DNA of 38,905 nt from assembly GCA_025057175.1 (NCBI GenBank), contig JANWYE010000009.1, forward strand, positions 1 through 38,905, given 5' to 3'. This DNA is from Chloroflexus sp. GTDB taxonomy: Bacteria; Chloroflexota; Chloroflexia; Chloroflexales; Chloroflexaceae. Both the position numbers and the translations under genes were made by a program. Below, piece after piece: positions 3,391 to 24,768 of the stretch (its first letter is position 1; every line of letters begins with the position of its first letter). The notes beneath the pieces are model-generated. The model ran no database searches. It saw nothing but the letters and a program-made list of their open reading frames with translations, and was not told where the DNA came from.

Positions 3391-5613
3391 TCAACCGTGG
3401 AGTAGGATGGAGCCGTTGGTGAATGGAATAGTGTGGGTCGCTCCATTCATTTCAAAACTTACGAAACCAGTCGGTTGAGCGAACGCAAACCCTAGCCTGC
3501 CATCCTCCTCGGTCATTGATCTGACTTCAGCAGTAGCATAACGCACAGTGAGACCGAGGCGAACCCGCCAATTGAGCGGCAAGATGGCTCCGCTGCGCGC
3601 TGGCAAGTGGATCGGATGGCCATCGCACAGGGGCGTGCCGCGATAGCTGATGTAGGTTTCCAATGGATCGTCGCCATAATGGTTGATGAACAGAAAGTCG
3701 CCTGCCGGGCCGCGGCTAAGCCGCACATCGGCCCACTGGCTGAGAGTGAATGGCGCAGGACAATCCACCCAATCGGCTAACTGGTTGAAGGCGGCAAGAT
3801 CGTCGAGCGCGACGATCGGAAAGGCAGCGCCGAGCACGATGATCTCGCCGTTGCCGATGGTCTTGCGGAACCCAACCGGCGCGCCATCGACCGTCGCAAA
3901 GACGGCGCCAAGTTCGCCATGGTAGCGCTGCACAAAACTGGCCGGAATGTCAACAATATCAAAGATGTCTACTCGACGTGGGGTAAAGGGTGGGTCACTC
4001 GCGATCTGAATGCTTAGCGCCTTTGCCAGTTCTCCCGCTTCACGCAAACGCCCGATAATAACCACCTTCCCGCCGGCGCGGGCATACTCCACTAGGCTGC
4101 GCTCGGTGGCCGGGTCGCTAGTGGTGTCAAGCATGACCCAGAGCAACGGAGTCTGGCGCGGATCAAGCGTCGCCTGTTGCAGCTCGATCGCAGTAAAGTC
4201 GCGGTGGCTCAACGCCAACCCGCGAGCGATGAAGTCGAACAAGATCACTTCGCGCTGGTGAGTGATGATGTTGGTTTCTTCTTGGGTGCAAGGCAGATTG
4301 ACTTCGGTCATAAAATCGTCAAGACGGAAGCCGATGGCCGTCACTGTTTCTGGCCGCGCTAAGGTTAGCGCCTCGCCATAGCTGGCCAGTGTGCGTGACA
4401 GCAGCGGGTAACGGTGATAATGGCTGCGCAACGTGCCGTCTTTGCGCACCGGGTGGCCCCAGTCGTGCCGTTTGACCGGGCTAAGGAGCGGGTCGTTTTC
4501 GCCATCGAAGAAGAGGTAGTGGTTGATGGCGCGCATCCCGTTCGAGAGACAGAGCCGGGTATGCAGATCGTAGAAGGCGCTTGACATGTTGCTGAAGTCG
4601 AGGTTGCCGCCAGCTTGGAACTCGATAGAAAAGAGTGGTTGGGCCGGGTTTTGAATGGCGACGGTCATCGCGTTGACCAGCACGAGTTGATGGAAGGTGC
4701 CTTCACCGATTTGGCCCGGATAGACATCGGTGGCGCTGATCACAGAAGGCATGCGCAGCGCATCGGCCAATTGCGACAGGCCGATAGGGAAGGTCTTGCC
4801 GCCATTGGCAAAGCCATGGATGTTAATTACCGCCGGCGTCTCAAGGCCATTGGCATGGGCTGTATCGAGCAGCCAGCGCGCGTAGTCGCGCAAGTAGGAA
4901 CGGTAGAAGCGGCGGTATGCGGCCACTAGCTGCGCTCCCTCCGCGCCCTCGGCGCGGCGCAGACGCTCGGCCAGCGTCACCAGATCGGACGCCGGTTCTG
5001 CGCCGTTGTGCGCGTTAAGCCAATTGGCAAAATGCTGCATTGCCACCGGATTGAGATCGAAGCTATTGCGCACCCAGTGCAACATTCCCATCTCGTTGTC
5101 GAGTTGCACCAGCACGATCGCGCCACCGCGCGTGATTTGGCGCGGCGCCAGCGCGGCAAAGACGGCGCGATACCATTCGGCGGCGCAATGCAGAAAGTCA
5201 GGGTGCAGGTAGCTGGCGACATTTTCGGTTTCACCGCGCTGGTTGATCAGCGCGATCTGCGGGTAACGCTCAAACACCCACGGCGGGATGCCTTCGTTGA
5301 TCGTCTCGGCCATGATATAGGGGCCGGGACGAGCAATGATGTACAGTCCCATGCGTTGGGCGAGATCGAGAAAACCGGTCAGGTCGCGCATTGGATGGGT
5401 TGTACCGCTTAGGTCGATCATCTCTGGTTGCGGCTGGTGCCAGAGCCACGGAATGTAGCAGGCTACCGCGTTGAAACCGGCCTGCGTGAGCAGACGCAGG
5501 CGGTGTTCCCACTGGTCAGCGGGGGTGCGGAAGTAATGGAATTCACCCGCTTGCAGCAAGAGCGGGCGACCGTCGATCCAGAAGCGTTGGTTGTGAACGG
5601 TAAGATTAGACAT
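3391..5613 (-). CDS. GH35-like beta-galactosidase/glycosidase
   Basis: 740 aa; GEFHYFRTPADQWEHRLRLLTQAGFNAVACYIPW, QLDNEMG (acid/base region), SIEFQAGG (nucleophile region). Confidence 0.82.
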   Translation of the reverse strand: MSNLTVHNQRFWIDGRPLLLQAGEFHYFRTPADQWEHRLRLLTQAGFNAVACYIPWLWHQPQPEMIDLSGTTHPMRDLTGFLDLAQRMGLYIIARPGPYIMAETINEGIPPWVFERYPQIALINQRGETENVASYLHPDFLHCAAEWYRAVFAALAPRQITRGGAIVLVQLDNEMGMLHWVRNSFDLNPVAMQHFANWLNAHNGAEPASDLVTLAERLRRAEGAEGAQLVAAYRRFYRSYLRDYARWLLDTAHANGLETPAVINIHGFANGGKTFPIGLSQLADALRMPSVISATDVYPGQIGEGTFHQLVLVNAMTVAIQNPAQPLFSIEFQAGGNLDFSNMSSAFYDLHTRLCLSNGMRAINHYLFFDGENDPLLSPVKRHDWGHPVRKDGTLRSHYHRYPLLSRTLASYGEALTLARPETVTAIGFRLDDFMTEVNLPCTQEETNIITHQREVILFDFIARGLALSHRDFTAIELQQATLDPRQTPLLWVMLDTTSDPATERSLVEYARAGGKVVIIGRLREAGELAKALSIQIASDPPFTPRRVDIFDIVDIPASFVQRYHGELGAVFATVDGAPVGFRKTIGNGEIIVLGAAFPIVALDDLAAFNQLADWVDCPAPFTLSQWADVRLSRGPAGDFLFINHYGDDPLETYISYRGTPLCDGHPIHLPARSGAILPLNWRVRLGLTVRYATAEVRSMTEEDGRLGFAFAQPTGFVSFEMNGATHTIPFTNGSILLHG

Positions 5614-5919: not shown

Positions 5920-7158
5920 TTAACTGGCCGGCACATGCTTTGTAAATCCCAACACATTCAGCGCACGCTGGATGAGCAGGCTCGATGTATAGACCTCCCA
6001 GATAAGACCACTACGAGCATTTTCGAGCATTAGCAACGCGCAACCTTTGTTGATGCCATAGATCGTCCGGCTAAACCATGGCGGGGTCACGTCGAGATTA
6101 TAGGCGTCGTAAAAGCCGTACGGCCCGCATGTCTGTGGCTGCTCGTGGTAGAGGTAGTCAAGCATCGTCAGCACAGCATCAGGCACAAATGGCATACAGG
6201 CGATCGCGTTACTAATCGAGACGGTGCCATCTGGTTTGAGCGGGACGAGTGCCGGCGGCGCGCCGGCGACGATGTAGCCGCGTGGCGTATCACCGCAGCC
6301 GATGCCCCAACTCTGCGCGTGATAGGTGCGAAACTGTTCACTCAGACTCAGACAAAAGTCGCGATTGGCCAGCGCGGCTAGCCGGGTATTGTGGAACCAA
6401 TCAACCCCGTTGGGATCGCGGTAGGCGCGTGTGTCGAGCCATGCTTCGCTATATTGATAGGCGAAGAGCGTGCCGCCGGGATTAATGATGATCGGTTGGC
6501 CTTGGTAGTAGCCGATGTCGCGGCGAAAGCTTTGATAGAGCGCGCGAGCGGTAGCCGCCGGCACGCAGAGAGCAGCTTGCAAGTAGAGCATCTTCTGCTC
6601 GGCGGCCATATCCCAGTAGCTAATAAATCCCGGCGTATCGGTCACGTAATCGCCACCGGCGTCGGGGTTGTACGACATGCGCAAGACCGTCTGACCGTTG
6701 TGCTCGGTGATGAAAGCTGCCCAATCGATCCGATCAAGCAGGCGCATTGCTAGCTCGTCAATCTCGGCATCGTGAAAATAGGCTGCTGCTGTCAACACTC
6801 CGTTCAAACAGAGACCGGTGTCGATGGTGGAGTATTCGCAGTGCTGCCAGCGCGCCGCAGTGTAGCGATCGAGGAAGTGTGCGAAAAAGCCGTATTGGTG
6901 CGGCACTCGTTCGTAGAGGGTGCGGAGCGTGCCGCGCGTGATCGCTAATGCCTCAGCGCGGCTCATGCGTCCACGCTCGACTGCGATCACCCACGCGCTC
7001 AGGGCAAAACCAACCGCGGCAATCGAGGCGATGCGTGGGCGATGAATCGCATCAACCGTCAGCCCGTAGCCGGGGCTAGCCGGATCGAGGTTGGTGCCGG
7101 CGCGAAAAAAGGCCAGCGCGCCATCAATTTCATAGTCGAACAGCGTTGTTTCGTCCAC
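5920..7158 (-). CDS. PF10091 'glycoamylase'/GH144-like glucanase, cytoplasmic form
   Basis: 412 aa, GTG start, no signal peptide; ALAFFRAGTNLDPASPGYGL...IASIAAVGFALSAWVIAVERG...; colinear with the extracellular paralog at 8302-9681. Confidence 0.82.
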   Translation of the reverse strand: MDETTLFDYEIDGALAFFRAGTNLDPASPGYGLTVDAIHRPRIASIAAVGFALSAWVIAVERGRMSRAEALAITRGTLRTLYERVPHQYGFFAHFLDRYTAARWQHCEYSTIDTGLCLNGVLTAAAYFHDAEIDELAMRLLDRIDWAAFITEHNGQTVLRMSYNPDAGGDYVTDTPGFISYWDMAAEQKMLYLQAALCVPAATARALYQSFRRDIGYYQGQPIIINPGGTLFAYQYSEAWLDTRAYRDPNGVDWFHNTRLAALANRDFCLSLSEQFRTYHAQSWGIGCGDTPRGYIVAGAPPALVPLKPDGTVSISNAIACMPFVPDAVLTMLDYLYHEQPQTCGPYGFYDAYNLDVTPPWFSRTIYGINKGCALLMLENARSGLIWEVYTSSLLIQRALNVLGFTKHVPAS

Positions 7159-10769: not shown

Positions 10770-11639
10770 TCAATCCTTCGCCCGCGGGCGCAAGACCAAA
10801 AAGGTCGCTATCAATAGCGCGATCAACGCCAACGCATAGAGAAATGCCATGGCGCTAGCGTAGCCGATCCCGCCCTCAACATCGTAAATGCGCGAATGAA
10901 TATATTTGATCACTTTGTTTTCCGAAAAATGTGAGAGGGTGATAATCGTATAGAGCGCATTGATCACGGTGGTGGTTGTGAGCGATGGCAAGGTAATTTT
11001 CCAGAACATCTCCCACGCTGAAGCGCCATCTACCGCGGCTGCTTCATAGACAAAACGGTCAATCTTTTGCAATCCGGCCAGATAGATCAGAATTTGCACG
11101 CCAGAAAACCACAAAATAAGAATGAACGACGTTAACAAATACCGGACTGGCTCGCGCAACAGGGCCGGTAATTGGCTAACAAAAGCGGTCACTGCCGCCG
11201 AAGAGGCCACTTGTGGCGCTGAAGTCGCTCCTTGCGCGACTAGTTCGCTGATGACCGGCCCGCTTGTGATCACGACCGGTAGAAAGAAGATGGTGCGAAA
11301 GATGGCTCTCCCCCAAAATGGCACATTCAAAAAGAGGGCAATGATCATAGAAAAGATCAAAATAATCGGGACTGAAATCGCCGTTTCAATTACATATTCC
11401 ACCAGTAGTTGCACAAAGGTCGGATCGGTAAATAGGGCGCGGGTGTAGTTTTGCCAGCCGATGGCGGTCAACTCAATCCCTGTTACCGCAACTTTGACAT
11501 TGCTTAGGCTGTATTGGAAGGTTTGCGCCAGTGGTGCGGCAGTGAATAGCGTAAACCCAATCAGCCATGGCAAGAGAAAACGGTAGCCTTGCAGATTTTC
11601 GCGCAGGCGAAAGCGCCATCGTGTTCTGCTGTTGGCCAT
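10770..11639 (-). CDS. Carbohydrate ABC transporter permease (MalF/UgpA type)
   Basis: EAAAVDGASAWEMFWKITLPSLTTT EAA loop; start reassigned to MANSRTRW, preceded by AAGGAG. Confidence 0.93.
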   Translation of the reverse strand: MANSRTRWRFRLRENLQGYRFLLPWLIGFTLFTAAPLAQTFQYSLSNVKVAVTGIELTAIGWQNYTRALFTDPTFVQLLVEYVIETAISVPIILIFSMIIALFLNVPFWGRAIFRTIFFLPVVITSGPVISELVAQGATSAPQVASSAAVTAFVSQLPALLREPVRYLLTSFILILWFSGVQILIYLAGLQKIDRFVYEAAAVDGASAWEMFWKITLPSLTTTTVINALYTIITLSHFSENKVIKYIHSRIYDVEGGIGYASAMAFLYALALIALLIATFLVLRPRAKD

Positions 11640-11698
11640 GCCGGTGCTCCTTCTTCTACCCCTTTCCTCTCGCCGCGCGCGAGAACAGGGAGGGGCCA

Positions 11699-13852
11699 CT
11701 ACTCAATCACCACCGCCTCCCGAGCTGGGATCATTCTGCCGGCCAACGAGACCGGTTGGTTCGTGTAGTTGACCACTATCCGTTTGCCGTTGGCATATTC
11801 GGTGACGGCCACGCCGGGCAAAGGCGTCGTTCGCGCCACAATCGCCGATCCTTGCACCGGCCCTAACACCTTAGCCAGCCTTGTATAGGCCCGCTGCACC
11901 TCGTCGCGCCATTGGCGATAGGCCGAGGTGTAGATCCAATTCGATCGCGTCTTTAACATTGCTGCTGTTGTCTCGTGGGTGAGCAAGAAGGATGGGTAGG
12001 CGCCATAGTCGGCGTGGCGCAGCAGGTCTTCTTCCAGATTCGACGAGAAGTTGAGCGGTGGGCCGTAGTATGGAATGTAGCCGGCCAACACGATCGGCAA
12101 GAAGGGTACGGCAGCAGAGGTGTAGATGTAGCCGCTGTCGCCGAGCGGCATATCGTAGTAGGCACGGGTAGCGCCCCATAGATAGGCGTTGGGCCGGTAG
12201 ATGGCAAAGGGGCCATTGGCGGTTAGTCGCTCTTGATAGGCTTGCAAGCTCTGCTCGCGGTTGCGGCGGGTTTCGGCGCGAAAATCGCTGTACAGCCGAA
12301 AGCCAATGCCGTCGAGCGCGATGCCAATTTCCACCGGTTGAAAGGCGTCGCGCCACGCTGCGATTCGCCGCTCGACTGCCGGCAGGTTGAGGTAGATCTG
12401 CTGCATGCCACGATGCGTGCCCCGTAAGATGGCCCGGTTGATCGCCATCGCGGTCTCGGCCCGCGTGTAGCCACTCTCATCAACGAGTCCAGCCTGCGGA
12501 TCAACATACAAACTCAAGTACCCTCCCTGCGCTGCAATTGTCTGCGCCAACCGTTCCAATGCTCCCCGGCTGCCCAACGCACCTTCGATCCGCAGGTCGA
12601 GCGGCAGCGGCGCGGTCGCGCCTTGCGGTTGCCAGCCGTAATAGACCACTTCCACCCGCCTCGTGGGCAGATCGGCGAGTATCTCGGCCATTTCAGCGAT
12701 GGTTGTCATCGGGATGGCCCGCTGCCAGAAGAGCACTCGCTCACGTTCAGCGCCGAGAAACTCGACCCGCAATGGTATCCCGTCACTGATGGCTCCCATT
12801 GGCTGCAACACGCCCTGCCCAACCAGAAAACGCTGATAGGCTCGCGCCAAGCCAACATAATCTGCCTCGGCTCCAGTGAGGAAGTGGTAGTGCTGCACAA
12901 TGTCAAAGGCGTTCGTCTGTGGTTGGATAACGGTTACTCCTGCGCCGGAGCGATTCGTGGGCTGGAAATAGCTCTCGTTGTAGATGAAGAGGTTGTAGAG
13001 AAAGTTGAATTTGGTAATTATCCCCGCCGGGTGCGCTAGCAGTTCGGCAAAAGCCGATCCCTGTTCGAGAATGGTCAGGAAGGCATGCCGTCCTTCGCCA
13101 TGCACCATCCCAAAGACCGGCGCCGAAAGCGGGTAGATAGGGCGGGTGTCGGGGTTGGCTGGCAACTCACCGCGCATTCCTAGATCTGGGCCATAGTAGC
13201 GGCCGTAGAACATCGCGCGGGCGGTCGTGCGCTCGGCGAAGGCAATGGTGCTGCCGCTGCCATCGGGAATCAGCATGTATCCCGGTGTCTCCGCTTCACG
13301 GGTGGCGCCGAAGAAGGGGTAGAGGTGCAATTGGGCCAGCCGGAAGTTACCCGCTTCACCGATCCCGCTGAATGGCACGGCCACCCGCACCCCGCTCGGC
13401 GTTAGCGTGACCTGCACGGTTACGGTGATGGCCGGTTCAGTGAAGGTGACTTGGCCGGTAAAACCATCGCTGTGCAGCGTAATTGCAAGCTGGTGTTCGG
13501 CGTTCGTAATCGAGGCCCGCCGCGTGTTGGTGCGCGCATCCATATACTCGATGCTGATCCCGCTGCGGGCAAAGGCCGTCCATGTCCGGTTGAGCCGGTC
13601 GTCTGGCGTCACTTCATCGAGGTTCGACGACCAGACATAGCCGCTGCGCCGGTCGAGTACCTTGAAGGCCAGCGTCTCGCGGTTGAGGTACAGCTCGAAG
13701 CCGGCATTGGCGGCCACCCGCTCATAACCGGCGGGGATGTTCGGCGCGCTTCCCGCCGCGTGGGTGGTGGGCAGATGCGTCGCCAGCAGGAGCGCTCCGA
13801 TCAGGAGATGGATGAGTGTGTATGCCTTCACCCTGAACCTCGTGTGTGCCAA
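11699..13852 (-). CDS. DUF5696-like secreted protein, possible TIM-barrel glycoside hydrolase
   Basis: 717 aa; signal peptide; N-terminal beta-rich region (GFELYLNRETLAFKVLDRRSGYVWSSNLDEV) then barrel-like C-terminal half (VEVVYYGWQPQG..., IGIALDGIGFRLYSDF). Confidence 0.6.
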   Translation of the reverse strand: MAHTRFRVKAYTLIHLLIGALLLATHLPTTHAAGSAPNIPAGYERVAANAGFELYLNRETLAFKVLDRRSGYVWSSNLDEVTPDDRLNRTWTAFARSGISIEYMDARTNTRRASITNAEHQLAITLHSDGFTGQVTFTEPAITVTVQVTLTPSGVRVAVPFSGIGEAGNFRLAQLHLYPFFGATREAETPGYMLIPDGSGSTIAFAERTTARAMFYGRYYGPDLGMRGELPANPDTRPIYPLSAPVFGMVHGEGRHAFLTILEQGSAFAELLAHPAGIITKFNFLYNLFIYNESYFQPTNRSGAGVTVIQPQTNAFDIVQHYHFLTGAEADYVGLARAYQRFLVGQGVLQPMGAISDGIPLRVEFLGAERERVLFWQRAIPMTTIAEMAEILADLPTRRVEVVYYGWQPQGATAPLPLDLRIEGALGSRGALERLAQTIAAQGGYLSLYVDPQAGLVDESGYTRAETAMAINRAILRGTHRGMQQIYLNLPAVERRIAAWRDAFQPVEIGIALDGIGFRLYSDFRAETRRNREQSLQAYQERLTANGPFAIYRPNAYLWGATRAYYDMPLGDSGYIYTSAAVPFLPIVLAGYIPYYGPPLNFSSNLEEDLLRHADYGAYPSFLLTHETTAAMLKTRSNWIYTSAYRQWRDEVQRAYTRLAKVLGPVQGSAIVARTTPLPGVAVTEYANGKRIVVNYTNQPVSLAGRMIPAREAVVIE

Positions 13853-13876: not shown

Positions 13877-15919
13877 CTACAAACTACGCAACCCGATCTC
13901 CTGCCAGACCGCGCTGACAAAATCGAACAGTTGCCCGAAGAGCAGCGAGAGAATGTAGGCGGTGAGCGCCAACATCGCCATCGTGAACAGCGTCTTGAGC
14001 ACGTTGCTCGTTGTTTCGGAAATGGTGTAGTTGTGGATTTCCCGCACCATAATAAAAAGCATCAATCCAGTCCATGCAAAGATGACCTGTTGCGAAAAAC
14101 TGACCAAGAAGACTTCATTGAGTGTGAGTACATTCGAGGCGGCGATCACCACCGGCATAAACAGCGCATAGGGGAAGAGGCTGTAGGCGCTGCCGATGAC
14201 CACATCGCGCACCCGACCTTCGCCGTCGCTGATGGTTGATACCAGATAGTTAGCGGTGTTCCACAAGCCAAACAGCGCCACCAGCAGCGCGATTTCGTTT
14301 TCAACCCGAATCTGGCCGGGATAGGCATACTGGTTGAACGGAAAACCCATCAGGTAGAGCGACAGCACATGCACGGCGATGACCCACAGGTAGATCAGCA
14401 GCGCAAACCGCAGGCTGCCGCGCTGATTGGCTTTGATGTAGTAGAAGCTATCGACCGGATGACGCACAAAGCGTAGCAGGAAGACCGCATCATCAATCAG
14501 CCGGTAACGGCGCAGCCGGCGCATACCGGCCCGCAATGGCGCTAGCCAGCCGTACCGCTGCTCAAATCGGCGCAAGACGCTCTGGCCGATCGCTGCCAAC
14601 GTTACCCCGACGATGAACGGGCCGAGGTATTGTTGTAACACCGCATTGCGCAGCTCCCAGAACGCTTCGGAATAGCCGTTCCGATCTTCAGCGTAGCGGT
14701 AGGCGGCCAGCGCGGCGGCGTAGTCGCCTGCCTTGAAGTAGGCATCGGCCAGTCCCTGATAGGCCATAATGAACGAGCCGTTGTAGTTGAGCACCTGTTC
14801 AAAGTAGGGTTGCGCTTCGCGGTAGAAGCCGGCCAGATAGAGCCGCATTGCCCGATGCACCGTCTCGGCGAAGGCCGTCGCTTGGTAAAGAATGAGCGCA
14901 TTCTTTTCTTTATCGAGCGCGTAGATCACATCGCCGGCGCGGGCAATACCGGTCGGGTTGATCAATGTGCCGCGCCGTTGATCGCCATAGTCGCGGGCAC
15001 TGAACATGAACAGCAAGGTGCCGTTTTGGTCGTATTCGAAGATGCGCCCCTCGCCATCAACCACCACCAGCAGCCCTTCGGGATCGATATGGATGTCGCG
15101 GAACGAGGTCGAGCCGTAGATGGTCGGGAAGATATTGCGCCCCGCCACGGTAAACTTGCGAATGCTCTGATCGGCGAAGGTGCTGGCGGTGATGGTGTAG
15201 AGCATTGATTGGCGGTCAATCGCCAGATTTGACGGTGAAGCGGCTTCGTTGCGCACCAGTTGGGCCAGTTGCTCTTCGCTCAGAAACATGCGCTGCAAGA
15301 TCATGCGCAGCGACATCTGGGCCGTGTTGGCGGCGAAGTTGCCGATAAAGCGCCCGTCAGGGTTGAGTTGAATGACCCCCTGCACCGATCCCTCGCTGAT
15401 CACGTAGAGGTTTTTGCGCCGGTCAACCGCTACTTTGCGCGGCAAGAAGGTGCGGTTCTTGCCAAAGAGCGGCTCGCTGGGCCGGCCAAACTGGTGGCGT
15501 AGCGCGCCATCGGCGGCAAAGACCACGATCTGATTCAGGCCGGCATCGGCGACATAGACCGTTCCTTCATCATCGACAAACACGCCGGTCGGCTTGTTCA
15601 GCACTCCTTTGCCATATTCGGCAGTCACAGCCAGCGTCGCATCGAGCCGCACTATGCGCCCGTTGCCGGTATCGGCGAGGTAGATCACGCCATCTGGCGT
15701 CATGAACAGGTCTTCCGGCCCGGCCACCGGCAGAGCGATTTCATCCACTGGAATGTAGGCATCCTGCGTCATGTACAACTCGCCGCCGGGACCGGGAGTC
15801 CACGTCACATAGGGGGCATCGGCCCGCGCTGGCGGCGCGAGCAACGCCAGCCCCCATGCCAGCGTGATCAGCGCGCCGATCACGAAGCTTATTCGTTTGC
15901 GGATGCGCACTGGTCTCAT
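13877..15919 (-). CDS. NHL-repeat / TPR-like / Yip1-like multi-pass membrane protein
   Basis: Signal peptide from MRPVRIRKR; repeated NHL-like blades ([38 protein letters not shown]); TPR-like [27 protein letters not shown]-terminal multi-TM Yip1-like region. ORF extends to 15982 with an alternative start. Confidence 0.75.
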
Positions 15920-15982
15920 GTGCTTGCCTCTGCGTTCTTCCTTGGCCCCTTGCCCGCCTGAGTGTATCGCGCTGGCCTCCAT

Positions 15983-16886: not shown

Positions 16887-17801
16887 TCAATCCTCGCGGA
16901 ACAGTTTGTTGGCAAGCCGGTTAAAGAGCAGCACCATGAACAGCAACACCACTGAAACGGCGGCGGCATAGCCCATCTCGTAGCGCAAAAAGCCGTAGTC
17001 TTCGATATGGTTGACAATCAGTTGGCCAGCATACTGCGGCGTTGGGTTGCTGCCCGATAGCGCGACCCCAATCGTGCCGGCCTGAAACGCGCCGACAATC
17101 GCCATCACCGCGCCAAACAGCATCTGTGGTTTCATTGATGGAATGGTGATGTAGATGATCTCTTGCCAGCGGCTGCTAATCCCGTCGAGCGCGCCGGCTT
17201 CGTACAATTCGGGATTGATGTCGAGCATGCCGGCCAGCATAGCCAAAAAGCCGACTCCCATGCTGCTCCACAGGGTGACGATGATCATAATCGTCATTAA
17301 GTACTCTGGCGATTGCAGCCACTGGATTGGCGCTTGGATCACGTTCAAGCTGAGCAGGAAGCTGTTCAGGTAGCCATTCTGATCACCGCTAAACAGCGTC
17401 TGCCAAACCACTGCCATCGCCACGCCGCCGGTCATTGACGGCGAGTAGAGGATGAGAGCGAAGATCGTGCGCGGCGTGCGTGGGAGCTGGGCCAGCATCC
17501 ACGCCAGCAAGAAGGCCAGCACGTACCCTCCCGGCCCAACCAGCACGGCAAACTGGATCGTGTTGGGCAAGACGTAGCGCATAAAGATGTCGTCTTGGGT
17601 CAGCAACACGATGTAATTGAGCAGACCGTTGAACTGTGGCGGCTGGATCGAGTCGAAAAAGGTGAACGACAGCAGAAATGCCGCTAGCACCGGGATCGCA
17701 ATGAAGATTGCGAACAGCACGGCATACGGAGCGACGAAGCCGTATGCGCTCGCCTCTTTGCGCCACTGCCTGCTCAGTTGGCTGCGCCATTCAGTTTGCA
17801 T
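16887..17801 (-). CDS. Carbohydrate ABC transporter permease (MalF/UgpA type)
   Basis: [29 protein letters not shown] loop; start overlaps the end of the SBP gene by 11 nt. Confidence 0.94.
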
Positions 17802-20637
17802 GCGCCATCCACTCCTTCACCATCTCGATCGTCGGAATCGTGATAGATCGCACCCGCTCGCCATTGCGGATGTAGCCGAACTCGGTCATCTTGCGCACAA
17901 TCTCACGATTGATGACCGTCACGGCACTGTCAATTGCAACCCGTGGGTTCGCGCCTTGAAAGACGATCCGGTTCCAGACGTTGCTCAACTCGCGCTCTTG
18001 CATATAACTGCCCGGCAGCTTGATCGGTTCTTGCAGCCATTGCCACTGCTGTAAAATTACCTCACGGTGCGAAGCGGCGATTGGCGTGAAGCGGAATGCC
18101 TCTAGATTGGCCGAGTTCCACAAGTATTCCAGCCCGAAGTTCATAATCAGCTCTTGCTGGAAGGCAACCTGCGTCTCGGTTGACATCCACCACTTGAGAA
18201 ATGCCCATCCTTGTTGCGGCTTATCGGTATTGGCAAACATCATCGCCGCCTGCGCCGAGCCGGTCGCATAACGCAACTGCCTTCCGTCGGGCAAGACGGT
18301 CGCCGGGTAGAGGTCGATGTCCCACAATCCATCGATCTCTGGCGCAGCGGTCAGCAACTTGAGATACGTTTCAAAGTTCGAGATGCCGACCGGCGTTTCG
18401 CCAGCGCGAAAACTGTCGTAGAAGCTGGCCGTGGTGAGCGGCATGCCGTAGATGGTGAAACTCTCGGCCATAAACCGGATCGCCTGAATCGCTTCGTCCG
18501 ATCCCAAGCCCGACATGCCATCTGGCGTATATAGCGATGCGCCATAGTTGAAGAGGTAAGGCGCCGTGACCAGATACCCCTTCAGGCCACCCCCGCTTGA
18601 AAGCGGCGTGTTGTAGTTCATGCCGAAGCGCTGCAATTCGGGCAGCATCTCTAGCACTTCATTCCACGTCCGCGGCACCGGCAAGTTGAGCGTTTCGAGA
18701 ATATCTTTGCGGTAGAACGTGACCCAAAAATCTTGGGTTTCGGGAATCGCGTAGACCGACTCGCCAATGATGTAGCTCAAGAGCGAACCGGGCGCATAGA
18801 TGCGAATGAAGCGGTCGAAGTCGGGGAAACGGCGCAGATCGTAGAGCGCGTTGCGGATTGCCAGCTCATACGGGATGTTGGTGCTGACACCGAGGGCAAT
18901 ATCGGGTTGGGTGCCGGCGGCGCATGCTAGTACGAGCTTCGACTCGTTGGGCATAATCGAAAACTTGACCTTGATCCCGCTCTGCGGAGTGAAGCGCTCG
19001 TCGGCCATGCGCTGAAGTAGGTTGACATATTGTTGCGGGCGATTAACCCACACTTCCAACTCATCGGGGGCGGCGCCGATGCTCTGGTAGGGATCGCTGC
19101 GGAACGAGGCGAAGAAGCGCTGGAACCAATCGGTGACGACTGCGCCGGCGGTGATGTTGGGTTCGGGTGGGATGATGTCCGGCGAATGGATGTAGATCTT
19201 GTCGAGCGCCAGCGGTTGGCTCTGCAGCGAGGGCAAGATGCTACCGAGCAATTGCGCTGCCGAGCCGGCCCCTTCCGATAGCCGGCTCATGCGGGTAGGA
19301 ATCCGGTTGGGGTCTTGGGCCAGAACCGCCAGATTGTCAATCGCCATCTGGTAGGCCAGCACCTCCGGCGAGGCCGGGGTTTGGTTGACGGCCAGCAACG
19401 CTTGTTGGTCGGCGCGCAGTTGGTTGATCAGAACCGCCAACCGTTCGCGAATATCGGGAATGTAGTCGGCGATCTCCCACTCTTTGTAGATGTCAATCTG
19501 ATTGCCGGTGAGCCGCTTAATCGCAAAGGCGAGGTCGGCAATCGCTTTCAGGCCGGCCCGCACCCGTTCAATCGAGTCGTGGTAAGGCGCGGTGGTGGCT
19601 TCGATCCCCAGAATGTGTGTGCCTTGTTCGAGATAGATCTGGTAGGGAGTGGATCCGCCTAAGGTGTAGTTGCGCCAATGCGGGTTATAGCCGAACGGCA
19701 CTGCATTTAGCTCGGCAAACAGCACCTGATCATCAATCAGAATGCGGCGATAAACGGTAAAGTTATTCTTGTAATCTTGGATGGCGCGCAGCGTGATCGC
19801 ATACCAGCCACTCTGGGGCACGCGAAACTCGTAGAAGACGGCAGTGCCGCTGCGGCTCCAGCTTTCGCCGCCGAGGGTGTTCATCCGCAAGTGGTACGGA
19901 TCATACGGCGTCACTTCAAGATTGCGACGACCGAGCGGACGCACGCTGGTGTCATTCTTAAAACTTGGCCGTTCGGCTTCGAGTTCGATCAGCACGCCAC
20001 TGGTTGTGGGCGCTTGCCGGCTAGCGTGATATTCAGCATAGGTTGGGTACGCGCTGATCGCCGGTTGCAAATAGATGCTGCCAAGCGCGATCGTACCTTC
20101 GCCAAGACTAAACGAGATGCGCTGGCGGCCCGCCGGCAGGGTAATCGTAGCCGGATAGGGTTGGCTAAAGTTGGGATCGCGCAACCAGACGTGGCTCCAG
20201 CGAGCCAAGCGGGCTTGCGGGATCAGGGTTTCGTTGCCGTAGCGATCGAGTGGGAATTGATCGGCGGTATCGTGATAGAAGAGCGGGATGATCAGCCGCT
20301 GGCGATCGCTGTGGCCATCAATCTGCACGAGCAATTCAGGCGGGATGAACGTGACCTCTTCCGGCACAGCGGCATCAATCGCCAGCATATACGCGCCGGC
20401 CTGTGGCACCTCGACAGCAACGGTGATGTGATCACCGGCGCGCAGCATGACGCTAGGTTTAGCGTAGGCCGTTGCTAACGGGTGGGTGCTTAGCGGCAAG
20501 CCTAACGAATCGGCGCGCACCTCAATGATTGGCGTCCGCCCGCCCTCGGCCCGCGCCAGCGATGGGCTAGAGAGCAGGCTGGCCAGCGCCAGCCAGAGCG
20601 CAATTATGAGGTGAATGGTATGCCGGTGTATAAGCAT
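17791..20637 (-). CDS. Large extracellular solute-binding protein with N-terminal beta-sandwich/CBM-like regions
   Basis: 948 aa; signal peptide ([13 protein letters not shown]) without a lipobox; C-terminal SBP-like part ([30 protein letters not shown]...[17 protein letters not shown]...[10 protein letters not shown]). Confidence 0.85.
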
Positions 20638-22386: not shown

Positions 22387-24768
22387 TCACCCCAAAACGA
22401 CCCGCACCCGATGGGTTTGTCCATCGGCGAAGACTGGCACGACATTGCCGTCGAATGGTTCCCCATCTACTTCGAGTGTCGCAACCCCGCGATTCACGTG
22501 GTTAGGATTGAGCACCTCAATCTCGTACACCGCACCGCGGAAGTGGCGGCGCACGGTGAAGCGATCCCATGCTGCCGGAATCAGCGGGTCGATCAGCAAG
22601 CCATTGGCCTGCGGCCTAATCCCCAAGATCCAGTGCGTCGCCACGCGGTGCAGCCACTGTGCCGAACCGGTGTACCACGTCCAGCCGCCACGTCCAAAAT
22701 ACGGTGATTGCGGGCCATCGATGTTGCCCGGCGTGACATACGGTTCGGCCTTGTAGCGATCCGGGTCAGCGCTGCGGTTGGGCGGGCAGATGCGGCGGTA
22801 GGCTTCGTAAGCCTTTTCGGCGTCACCGAGCAGCGCGTAGGCCCACACCGACCACGTTGCGGCGTGAGTATAGACACCGCCGTTCTCGCGCAGCCCCGGC
22901 GCGTAGCGGGTTACATAACCGATATCGGGGCGCGGGCGAGTGAAAGCGGGATAGTTGAGCAGCGTGCCGTAATCGCAAAGCAGATAGCGCGAGACCGACT
23001 CCATCGCTTGCCAAGCCCGCTCATGGTCGGCGATGCCGCTGATCACCGCCCAAATGTTGGGCATCAAGAAGATGCGACCTTCATCATTCTCGCGCGACCC
23101 CAACGGCAAGCCGTCATCGGTTGTCGCCTGCAAAAACCACTCGCCATCCCAGCCATAGCGGTTCGTTGCCCAGCGCAGCGTCTCCCGCACGGCGACGCAA
23201 CGTTCGGCGAAGCGATCGTCGTTACGCTGGCGGGCAAGCGACAGCCAACGTTCGAGAATCGCGTAGAGAAACTCGGCCACCCAAAAACTCTCGCCGCGCA
23301 GATGGGTGCCAACTGCGTTGAGGCCATCATTCCAATCGTGATCACCCATCAGTGGGATGCCGCGAGGCGAAAAGCGGCTGAATGCGCGCTCGATCGCTCG
23401 CTTACAATGCAGATAGAGCGGCTCGGCCGGGCCATTCAGGTACGGTACCGGCTCGTCAAGAATCGCGAAGTCGTTAGTCTCTTGCAAGTACGAATCGACG
23501 ATAAACGGCAACCAGAGCAGATCATCCGAGCAATTGGTGCGCGGGCCACCGCCGCGGATCGAAAACCACCAGTGCAACACATCGCCCTCAATAAACTGCT
23601 GGGCAGCGTGCAGCAGAATCTGGTGCTTGGCCAATGCGGGATCGCACACCAAAAAGATCTGGCTGTCTTGCAACTGGTCGCGGAAGCCGTATCCCGCCGA
23701 GACCTGATAAAACGCCGACTTCGCCCACAATCGGCCTGAAATCGCCTGATACTTCAGCCAATAGTTGGTCATCAGATTGAGCGCCGGATCGGGCGTTGCG
23801 ACGTGTTCGGCCTCGACCAGCCGCGACCAGAAGGCCTGTACTGCAGCTAGTGTTTGTGCGCTGGCTGTTGGCGAAGTGAAACGGCGGATCAGCGCGGCAG
23901 GGTCTTCGCGACCCTGCTCGGCAGCGCCCAAGGTAAAGACAACCGTGCGGCTCTCGCTGGGCGCCAGCGCCACTTCAACTTGCAACGCAGCGATCGCGTC
24001 GCCAAAGCGGCCGGTTCGGCCGGCCAAGGTTGCCATCCGCATTGCTTGCGGATGCTCAAGGCTCTGGTAGAGACCTATAAACGACTCTTTGTCGCCATCG
24101 AAGCTCTTCAGCGGCTCGCTCGCGGCTAGAAACGCCACGTAGGGCCAATCGAGGTTATTATGCCGGCCTGCCTCATCGGCAAAGCCCCACAGATACTTGC
24201 GCGCCAATAGCGCATTGAGTGAATGATCAACCGTGGTATCGATAAACAGCTTATGGAACTCGCGATGTTCGTCGGGCGCAAACCCCAACAGCCACTCGAC
24301 ATAAGAGGTTACATCAAGCCGGCGCGGTCGATCGGTCAGATTAGTCAGCGTCAGCTCAAAAAACTCAACTGGATCGTGCGGGGCGACGAAGACAGTCAAC
24401 AGGCTACGAATGCCGTGCGCCTCCTGCGCGAAGCGCGAATAGCCCAGCCCGTGAGTCACTTGATAGTGGTCGTAAGCGTGCAACGTTGGTTTATAGGTTG
24501 CCGACCAGTACGCGCCGCTATCAAGATCGCGCAGATAAAGATACTTGCCCCAATTATCTTGCACCAAGTCTTGAAACGAGCGGGTAATCCGGTTTTGGCC
24601 GGCATTGTTGCGCCAGCTATAGCCGGAACCGGTCTGCGAGACCATCATAGAGTAATCGCCGTTGCTGATCACATTGCCCCACGGGCGCGGCGTCAGTGGC
24701 GTCGTGATGATGTATTCGCGGCCATCGGCGCTGAAGTAGCCGTAGCGGCTGGCAAAGAGGCGTTCCAT
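22387..24768 (-). CDS. GH94-family glycoside phosphorylase (cellobiose/chitobiose/beta-1,2-oligoglucan phosphorylase-like)
   Basis: 793 aa; SRYGYFSADGREYIITTPLTPRPWGNVISNGDYSMMVSQTGSGYSW; DHDWNDGLNAVGTHLRGESFWVAEFL with the GH94 catalytic Asp; YVTPGNIDGPQSPYFGRGGWTWYTGSAQWLHR. Confidence 0.92.
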   Translation of the reverse strand: MERLFASRYGYFSADGREYIITTPLTPRPWGNVISNGDYSMMVSQTGSGYSWRNNAGQNRITRSFQDLVQDNWGKYLYLRDLDSGAYWSATYKPTLHAYDHYQVTHGLGYSRFAQEAHGIRSLLTVFVAPHDPVEFFELTLTNLTDRPRRLDVTSYVEWLLGFAPDEHREFHKLFIDTTVDHSLNALLARKYLWGFADEAGRHNNLDWPYVAFLAASEPLKSFDGDKESFIGLYQSLEHPQAMRMATLAGRTGRFGDAIAALQVEVALAPSESRTVVFTLGAAEQGREDPAALIRRFTSPTASAQTLAAVQAFWSRLVEAEHVATPDPALNLMTNYWLKYQAISGRLWAKSAFYQVSAGYGFRDQLQDSQIFLVCDPALAKHQILLHAAQQFIEGDVLHWWFSIRGGGPRTNCSDDLLWLPFIVDSYLQETNDFAILDEPVPYLNGPAEPLYLHCKRAIERAFSRFSPRGIPLMGDHDWNDGLNAVGTHLRGESFWVAEFLYAILERWLSLARQRNDDRFAERCVAVRETLRWATNRYGWDGEWFLQATTDDGLPLGSRENDEGRIFLMPNIWAVISGIADHERAWQAMESVSRYLLCDYGTLLNYPAFTRPRPDIGYVTRYAPGLRENGGVYTHAATWSVWAYALLGDAEKAYEAYRRICPPNRSADPDRYKAEPYVTPGNIDGPQSPYFGRGGWTWYTGSAQWLHRVATHWILGIRPQANGLLIDPLIPAAWDRFTVRRHFRGAVYEIEVLNPNHVNRGVATLEVDGEPFDGNVVPVFADGQTHRVRVVLG

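Follow-up and report, generated by a model that had tools for sequence, protein, structure and literature searches.

The DUF5696 protein of this locus, which we call P0001, is probably a glycan-handling subunit of a composite ABC importer, derived from a GH129-type glycosidase and itself probably non-catalytic; we draw this from sequence comparison, a predicted fold and gene neighbourhoods. As a protein, P0001 is a divergent relative of the GH129 enzymes; as a system, the locus is an unusual CUT1-type importer. The window that we analysed, 38,905 nucleotides long, is the entire contig.

The protein and its locus

The DUF5696 ORF is read from a TTG start into 717 amino acids (Table 1). P0001 matches PF18952 (DUF5696) with 537.3 bits (E 7e-161; gathering cut-off 25.6 bits) over residues 126-712, which correspond to positions 6-611 of the 612 in the profile. 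Its N-terminus carries a hydrophobic signal segment (predicted helix 10-23) without a lipobox. An earlier sequence-only reading of this DNA, which left out the strand, had described an exported DUF5696 protein of this length, and the profile match and the signal segment bear it out; the motifs that it quoted, VEVVYYGWQPQG, GGYLSLYVDPQAG and IGIALDGIGFRLYSDF, are all found in P0001. We found a single DUF5696 copy in the source genome, which is 82% complete and which, from the 80-88% identity shown by Chloroflexus relatives such as C. islandicus, belongs to a Chloroflexus species.

Table 1. Features of the DUF5696 locus in window coordinates (residue numbers are those of P0001)
Feature	Coordinates	Strand	Basis or remark
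GH3 beta-glucosidase-type protein P0014	1261..3369	minus	profile
GH35 P0013, closest to beta-1,2-glucosyltransferase IaSGT	3391..5613	minus	sequence match
Second GH144-type protein P0012, no signal peptide seen	5920..7158	minus	profile
LacI-family regulator P0011	7162..8145	minus	profile
Exported GH144-type endo-beta-1,2-glucanase homologue P0005	8302..9714	minus	matches endo-beta-1,2-glucanase 5gzh
ABC permease pB, P0004	9674..10609	minus	PF00528 above cut-off
ABC permease pA, P0003, EAA-type loop YEAAAVDGASAWEMFWKITLP by eye	10770..11699	minus	1-nt overlap with DUF5696 ORF
DUF5696 protein P0001, exported, GH129-like three-domain fold	11699..13852	minus	profile and model
Alpha/beta-barrel domain, residues ~360-666	11855..12775	minus	model, Foldseek
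Y552 codon, GH129 acid/base Glu position	12197..12199	minus	E in 5/52 DUF5696 proteins
D514 codon, GH129 nucleophile Asp position	12311..12313	minus	D in 16/52 DUF5696 proteins
N-terminal beta-rich domain, residues ~37-345	12818..13744	minus	model; aligns with DagB N-terminal domain
N-terminal signal segment, residues 1-33	13754..13852	minus	sequence; helix 10-23 in model
NHL beta-propeller, TPR and membrane Yip1 protein P0002, obligate upstream partner	13877..15982	minus	profiles, linkage
ABC permease pB2, P0006	15983..17017	minus	PF00528 above cut-off; EAA-type loop
ABC permease pA2, P0007	16887..17801	minus	PF00528 above cut-off
P0008, 948-aa large solute-binding protein with N-terminal CBM6/CBM35-like beta-sandwiches	17791..20637	minus	profile, model
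Solute-binding protein P0009	20691..22169	minus	close orthologue in PDB 22hh-22hl
GH94 (SOGP-type)	22387..24768	minus	profile, sequence match

The gene does lie between two ABC permease pairs, as had been noted: pA2/pB2 and the NHL-Yip1 gene are upstream, and pA/pB downstream. The same reading had spoken of a glycan locus, and the neighbours allow one to be more specific, since two GH144-type proteins, a SOGP-type GH94 and an IaSGT-type GH35 mark it, by their sequences, as a beta-1,2-glucan locus. An SGL of C. aurantiacus has been used to make Sop3-7 (PMC12102758). P0003 scores 25.7 against PF00528, just under the cut-off of 26.4, and the true start of P0006 is probably inside its annotated ORF. 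The model of P0008 (pLDDT 52) is poor in the solute-binding half and usable only for the N-terminal CBM-like domains. The close orthologue of P0009 is the subject of five PDB entries, for which we found no paper, and knowing its ligand would identify the cargo here. The permease pairs with EAA loops and the solute-binding proteins P0008 and P0009 are features of CUT1 importers. The window proteins that we scanned include no ABC ATPase, which must then come from elsewhere; in Paenibacillus cellulosilyticus, a UgpC-type gene adjoins the module. A HEPN-domain protein is encoded at the contig edge (201-611, minus strand).

A predicted GH129-type fold and the fate of its catalytic pair

The AF2 model of P0001, built from 16 homologues (pLDDT 69, pTM 0.75), has low confidence at residues 514-522 and 547-577, where the catalytic loops lie. 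It places a beta-rich domain at the N-terminus, as had been read from the sequence, followed by a barrel and by a C-terminal beta domain (residues 671-716). The proposal that the C-terminal half is a (beta/alpha)8 barrel came with a suggested comparison of the model to GH31-, GH36- and GH101-like barrels; Foldseek against the PDB indeed returned a TIM barrel of the GH101/GH129/GH36/GH31 type, for which GH129 is the best match. The top structure was DagB/ZgGH129 (5opq, E 7e-27, TMt 0.67, over the full length), followed by NagBb (E 1e-17), GH101 (E 1e-14) and then GH36, GH31 and GH97; the TMt to the NagBb and DagB folds is 0.60-0.67 for a model of this pLDDT. Sequence profiles independently agree with the fold match. 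A 52-member DUF5696 profile (A2) found 5opq (E 3e-15) and NagBb (E 2e-13) in the PDB, and hhalign of DUF5696 against 13 GH129-type enzymes gave a probability of 99.9 (E 1.6e-32) over 608 columns. Profiles were needed because a single-sequence phmmer search of the PDB with P0001 gave nothing meaningful; hmmscan gave no match to PF11308, which places P0001 outside the Pfam GH129 family. Thus, going by the model, P0001 is a GH129-fold protein, and the profiles indicate that the DUF5696 family is homologous to the GH129 enzymes. No relatives were found in viral contigs.

Some weak matches to the DUF5696 profile were rejected as members. Two from Chloroflexota (L035, L039) are GH13 amylase-type barrels by sequence, and L032 and L033 (Chloroflexota) and L100 (Bacillota) are GH129/DUF6259-like enzymes. 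The profile overlap that PF19773 (DUF6259), L032 and L033 show with both DUF5696 and GH129 is weak and lies in the first half of the barrel. Unlike most DUF5696 proteins, L032, L033, L100 and L101 retain Asp and Glu at the aligned sites, and they are possible uncharacterised glycosidases; there is no transport module of the DUF5696 kind near L032 and L033.

The 13 aligned GH129-type enzymes share an invariant Asp, a Glu 44 residues later (in the numbering of the first row) and another Asp 4 residues after this Glu. We take the first two to be D435 and the acid/base Glu of NagBb, from the motif and the spacing. NagBb D435 has been equated with DagB D486 as the common catalytic Asp (PMC5698469). 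In the A1 alignment, the nucleophile Asp falls on D514 of P0001; in A2 its column lies at a one-residue gap, and for this reason we applied a register tolerance of one residue on either side. The acid/base Glu, found in 13/13 enzymes, falls on Y552 with A2 in each of the four local hhalign settings and with A1 in three of four, and the second Asp, equally invariant (13/13), falls on A556, a position held by Asp in 14/52 DUF5696 proteins. P0001 has an acid at the first GH129 site and none at the second.

Across the family, position 514 is occupied by D in 16 of the 52 proteins, by R in 13, S in 7, L in 4 and by other residues in the rest, and the acid/base column holds Glu in 5. With the register tolerance, acids are found at 514/515 in 32/52, at 551-553 in 14/52 and at both in 5/52, which leaves 20/52 without any nucleophile-like acid at 514/515. 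The strict reading, in which 16/52 have a nucleophile-like acid, is softened by this one-residue shift, and since 32 proteins keep an acid there, the argument for loss rests on the acid pair and not on a single site. On these alignments, the GH129 catalytic pair is lost in most DUF5696 proteins. The residues that are invariant in the family are W407, R532, N601 and D/E615 (52/52), and N555 (48/52) and D523 (46/52) are nearly so; D523 and D/E615 are conserved acids and candidate cleft residues.

The distribution of D514 follows the type of locus. It is found in 16/16 sampled proteins from loci with a beta-1,2-glucan-type solute-binding protein, 14 of which also have a GH144, and in 0/36 of the others; one locus of this set, L018, ends short on the solute-binding-protein side, and its sister L019/L069 has both. 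D523 and D567 are retained along with D514 in this lineage. As D514 is confined to it, we read this residue as lineage-specific and possibly ligand-specific. The acidic residue that had been noticed at a strand end in the last motif is this D514, in ALDGIG, and it does align with the GH129 nucleophile position; the conservation of the Asp of ALDGIGFR holds throughout the lineage and fails family-wide. A conserved acidic pair across homologues, whose absence the sequence-only reading had named as grounds for rejection, was not found at the GH129 sites, even with the tolerance. The idea of an uncharacterised glycosidase therefore keeps its fold and its homology, but it meets a Tyr in place of the acid/base Glu and a family that mostly lacks the pair. 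The fold alone is poor ground for annotating DUF5696 as a new glycosidase.

A conserved gene module with permeases

Loci were collected by homologue searches blind to their neighbours, which were then assigned with profiles seeded from the window proteins. An NHL-Yip1 partner, encoded either by a single fused gene or by separate NHL and Yip1 genes, lies directly upstream of DUF5696 in 55/55 loci from Chloroflexota and Bacillota. The genes pA and pB are the next two downstream, often with a 4-nt overlap, in the 52/52 loci that have enough contig, and the CBM-fused solute-binding protein, pA2 and pB2 are upstream in 43 loci, some contigs ending short. Six Bacillota loci have only the NHLYip-DUF5696-pA-pB core, with a Pfam-confirmed solute-binding protein nearby in 4/6. 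In one locus (L127) the order is permuted to NHLYip-DUF5696-pA-pB-CBM-SBP-pA2-pB2, which suggests a module of two separable halves. The same gene order can be seen in the annotation of a Paenibacillus and of a Butyrivibrio plasmid. This obligate linkage to NHL/Yip1 and permeases, which the sequence-only reading had missed, points to a role in transport.

Of 501 genomes, 41 have full-length DUF5696, and these same 41 have module-type Yip1 (15 Chloroflexota, 26 Bacillota; Fisher p 1.5e-59, with relatedness not corrected), and the converse search of these genomes with the Yip1 profile gave one weak extra match (G415). Between the proteins of the module, pairwise distances are correlated at 0.90-0.96 (DUF5696-NHLYip 0.96, DUF5696-pA 0.95), those of pA2 agreeing best with pB2, and on this basis the module appears to be inherited as a unit. 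It is present in about 7-9% of the genomes sampled from Chloroflexota and Bacillota, some of which hold at least 8 copies; five Bacillota genomes (G243, G265, G285, G339, G369) have at least 8 module-type Yip1 copies each, with no more than 10 candidates scored, which indicates a strong expansion of the module. Some members have a predicted transmembrane hairpin inside the barrel: in L028 and L029, which belong to one Chloroflexota family, two hydrophobic helices are inserted at residues ~545-611, right after the loop equivalent to D523, which suggests a direct membrane insertion of the barrel.

Beyond the beta-1,2-glucan lineage, the module neighbours GH26, GH43, GH10, GH42, GH30, GH9, GH95, GH106, GH5 and pectate lyase, so that it adjoins enzymes for xylan, mannan, pectin or rhamnose-containing glycans. 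Such variety is expected of a transport part and not of a fixed hydrolase. We rejected the idea that all DUF5696 proteins are beta-1,2-glucan enzymes, as GH144, GH94 and GH35 neighbours are missing from most modules outside one lineage. In several Chloroflexota loci (L061-L067, L071), none of the neighbours scanned is glycan-active, and RelA/SpoT, radical SAM, TPP enzyme and helicase genes are found there instead. In the 5.4 million open papers that we searched, there was no mention of DUF5696, and no description of the module was found among open papers.

Proposed role and comparison with known systems

We propose that DUF5696 descended from a GH129-type alpha-glycosidase, whose three-domain fold was kept while the Asp/Glu pair was lost in most members, and that it became the extracytoplasmic part of a composite ABC importer that is itself conserved. 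The protein would bind an oligosaccharide and present it to the pA/pB permease pair, and the NHL-TPR-Yip1 membrane protein would anchor or coordinate it. At this locus, the exported GH144 would release beta-1,2-glucooligosaccharide as the cargo; the solute-binding proteins would capture it and, once it had been imported, enzymes of GH94, GH35 and GH3 would phosphorolyse or split it. Glycan binding by P0001, its own lack of catalysis and the inward direction of transport are all presumed here; so is a physical complex of DUF5696 with the permeases and NHL-Yip1, gene linkage being no proof of contact.

The retention of D514 by P0001 and by 15/15 other members of its lineage, as if this residue worked, is a counterpoint to the subunit reading, and D523, D567 and D/E615 could be alternative catalytic acids. 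P0001 would then belong to an unassigned GH129-related family and be catalytically active as a glycosidase or transglycosylase. Its nucleophile would be D514, paired with a second acid that could be D567, D523 or, as happens in DagB, a residue of a partner subunit, and before import it might trim off substituents, or the alpha-1,6 link that closes alpha-1,6-cyclised beta-1,2-glucans. The fold fits such an enzyme, and so does the co-retention of three acids in all 16 lineage members. There is also a precedent, as GH129-like enzymes can alter the acid/base residue: DagB requires acids absent in NagBb, one of them from a second monomer (PMC5698469). Against it stand Tyr552, the 20 family members without a nucleophile-like acid, and a gene tied to transport genes instead of to one substrate, and we consider both the enzyme and its trimming activity unlikely, although this is the alternative that we take most seriously.

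The obligate linkage with permeases and a membrane scaffold, together with the hairpin of some members, would also suit a ligand-free chaperone that assembles or anchors the permease complex, in the manner of rBAT and 4F2hc, whose GH-fold ectodomains serve a transporter and which have been called fake or orphan alpha-glucosidases (PMC8537225). But the residue at position 514, which sits at the mouth of the barrel, changes with substrate context, suggesting ligand contact, and we regard this role as decidedly improbable. An NHL propeller with TPR and Yip1 is an odd part for a transporter and might be expected of an assembly for glycan sensing or signalling; the permease pair is always linked, a second pair and a solute-binding protein usually are, and the module has no signalling domain, so that we give this explanation very little credence. 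Should the importer with a GH-derived subunit be right, it would provide a testable role for a large unannotated gene set, and it may explain the uptake of large oligosaccharides by the bacteria that bear the module. A broader claim, on which we are undecided and lean slightly to doubt, is that a previously undescribed class of bacterial importer for glycans is widespread among the Chloroflexota and Bacillota, with a catalytically dead GH129-derived barrel as obligate substrate-presenting subunit, held to the permeases by NHL-TPR-Yip1.

Among known systems, NagBb (a GH129 alpha-N-acetylgalactosaminidase) and DagB/ZGAL_3152 (a GH129-like 3,6-anhydro-D-galactosidase) share with P0001 profile homology and the succession of N-terminal beta domain, TIM barrel and C-terminal beta domain, as well as, in the D514 lineage, an Asp at the nucleophile position. 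They differ in their acid/base Glu (E568 in the aligned enzymes), in a catalytic pair that is absent from 47/52 DUF5696 proteins, and in that the DUF5696 gene, unlike theirs, is fixed in a transport module. GH101 endo-alpha-N-acetylgalactosaminidase, GH36, GH31 and GH97 have the barrel fold in common with P0001 as weaker and more remote matches. Enzymes of GH129 and of these four families act mainly on alpha-linkages, which contrasts with the beta-glucan locus found here. CUT1-type importers, such as the sophorooligosaccharide importer of Listeria innocua (Lin1841), are alike in having a solute-binding protein, two permeases, EAA loops and the same class of cargo; this locus differs by its two permease pairs, its CBM-fused solute-binding protein, its NHL-TPR-Yip1 protein, its GH-fold subunit and an ATPase not found in the window. 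Finally, if the importer is real, it would be a bacterial counterpart to rBAT and 4F2hc, the heavy chains of animal heteromeric amino-acid transporters, which also use a glycosidase-fold ectodomain (GH13) as a transporter subunit. This analogy is one of function, as the GH clan and the transporter class are different and the origin is unrelated.
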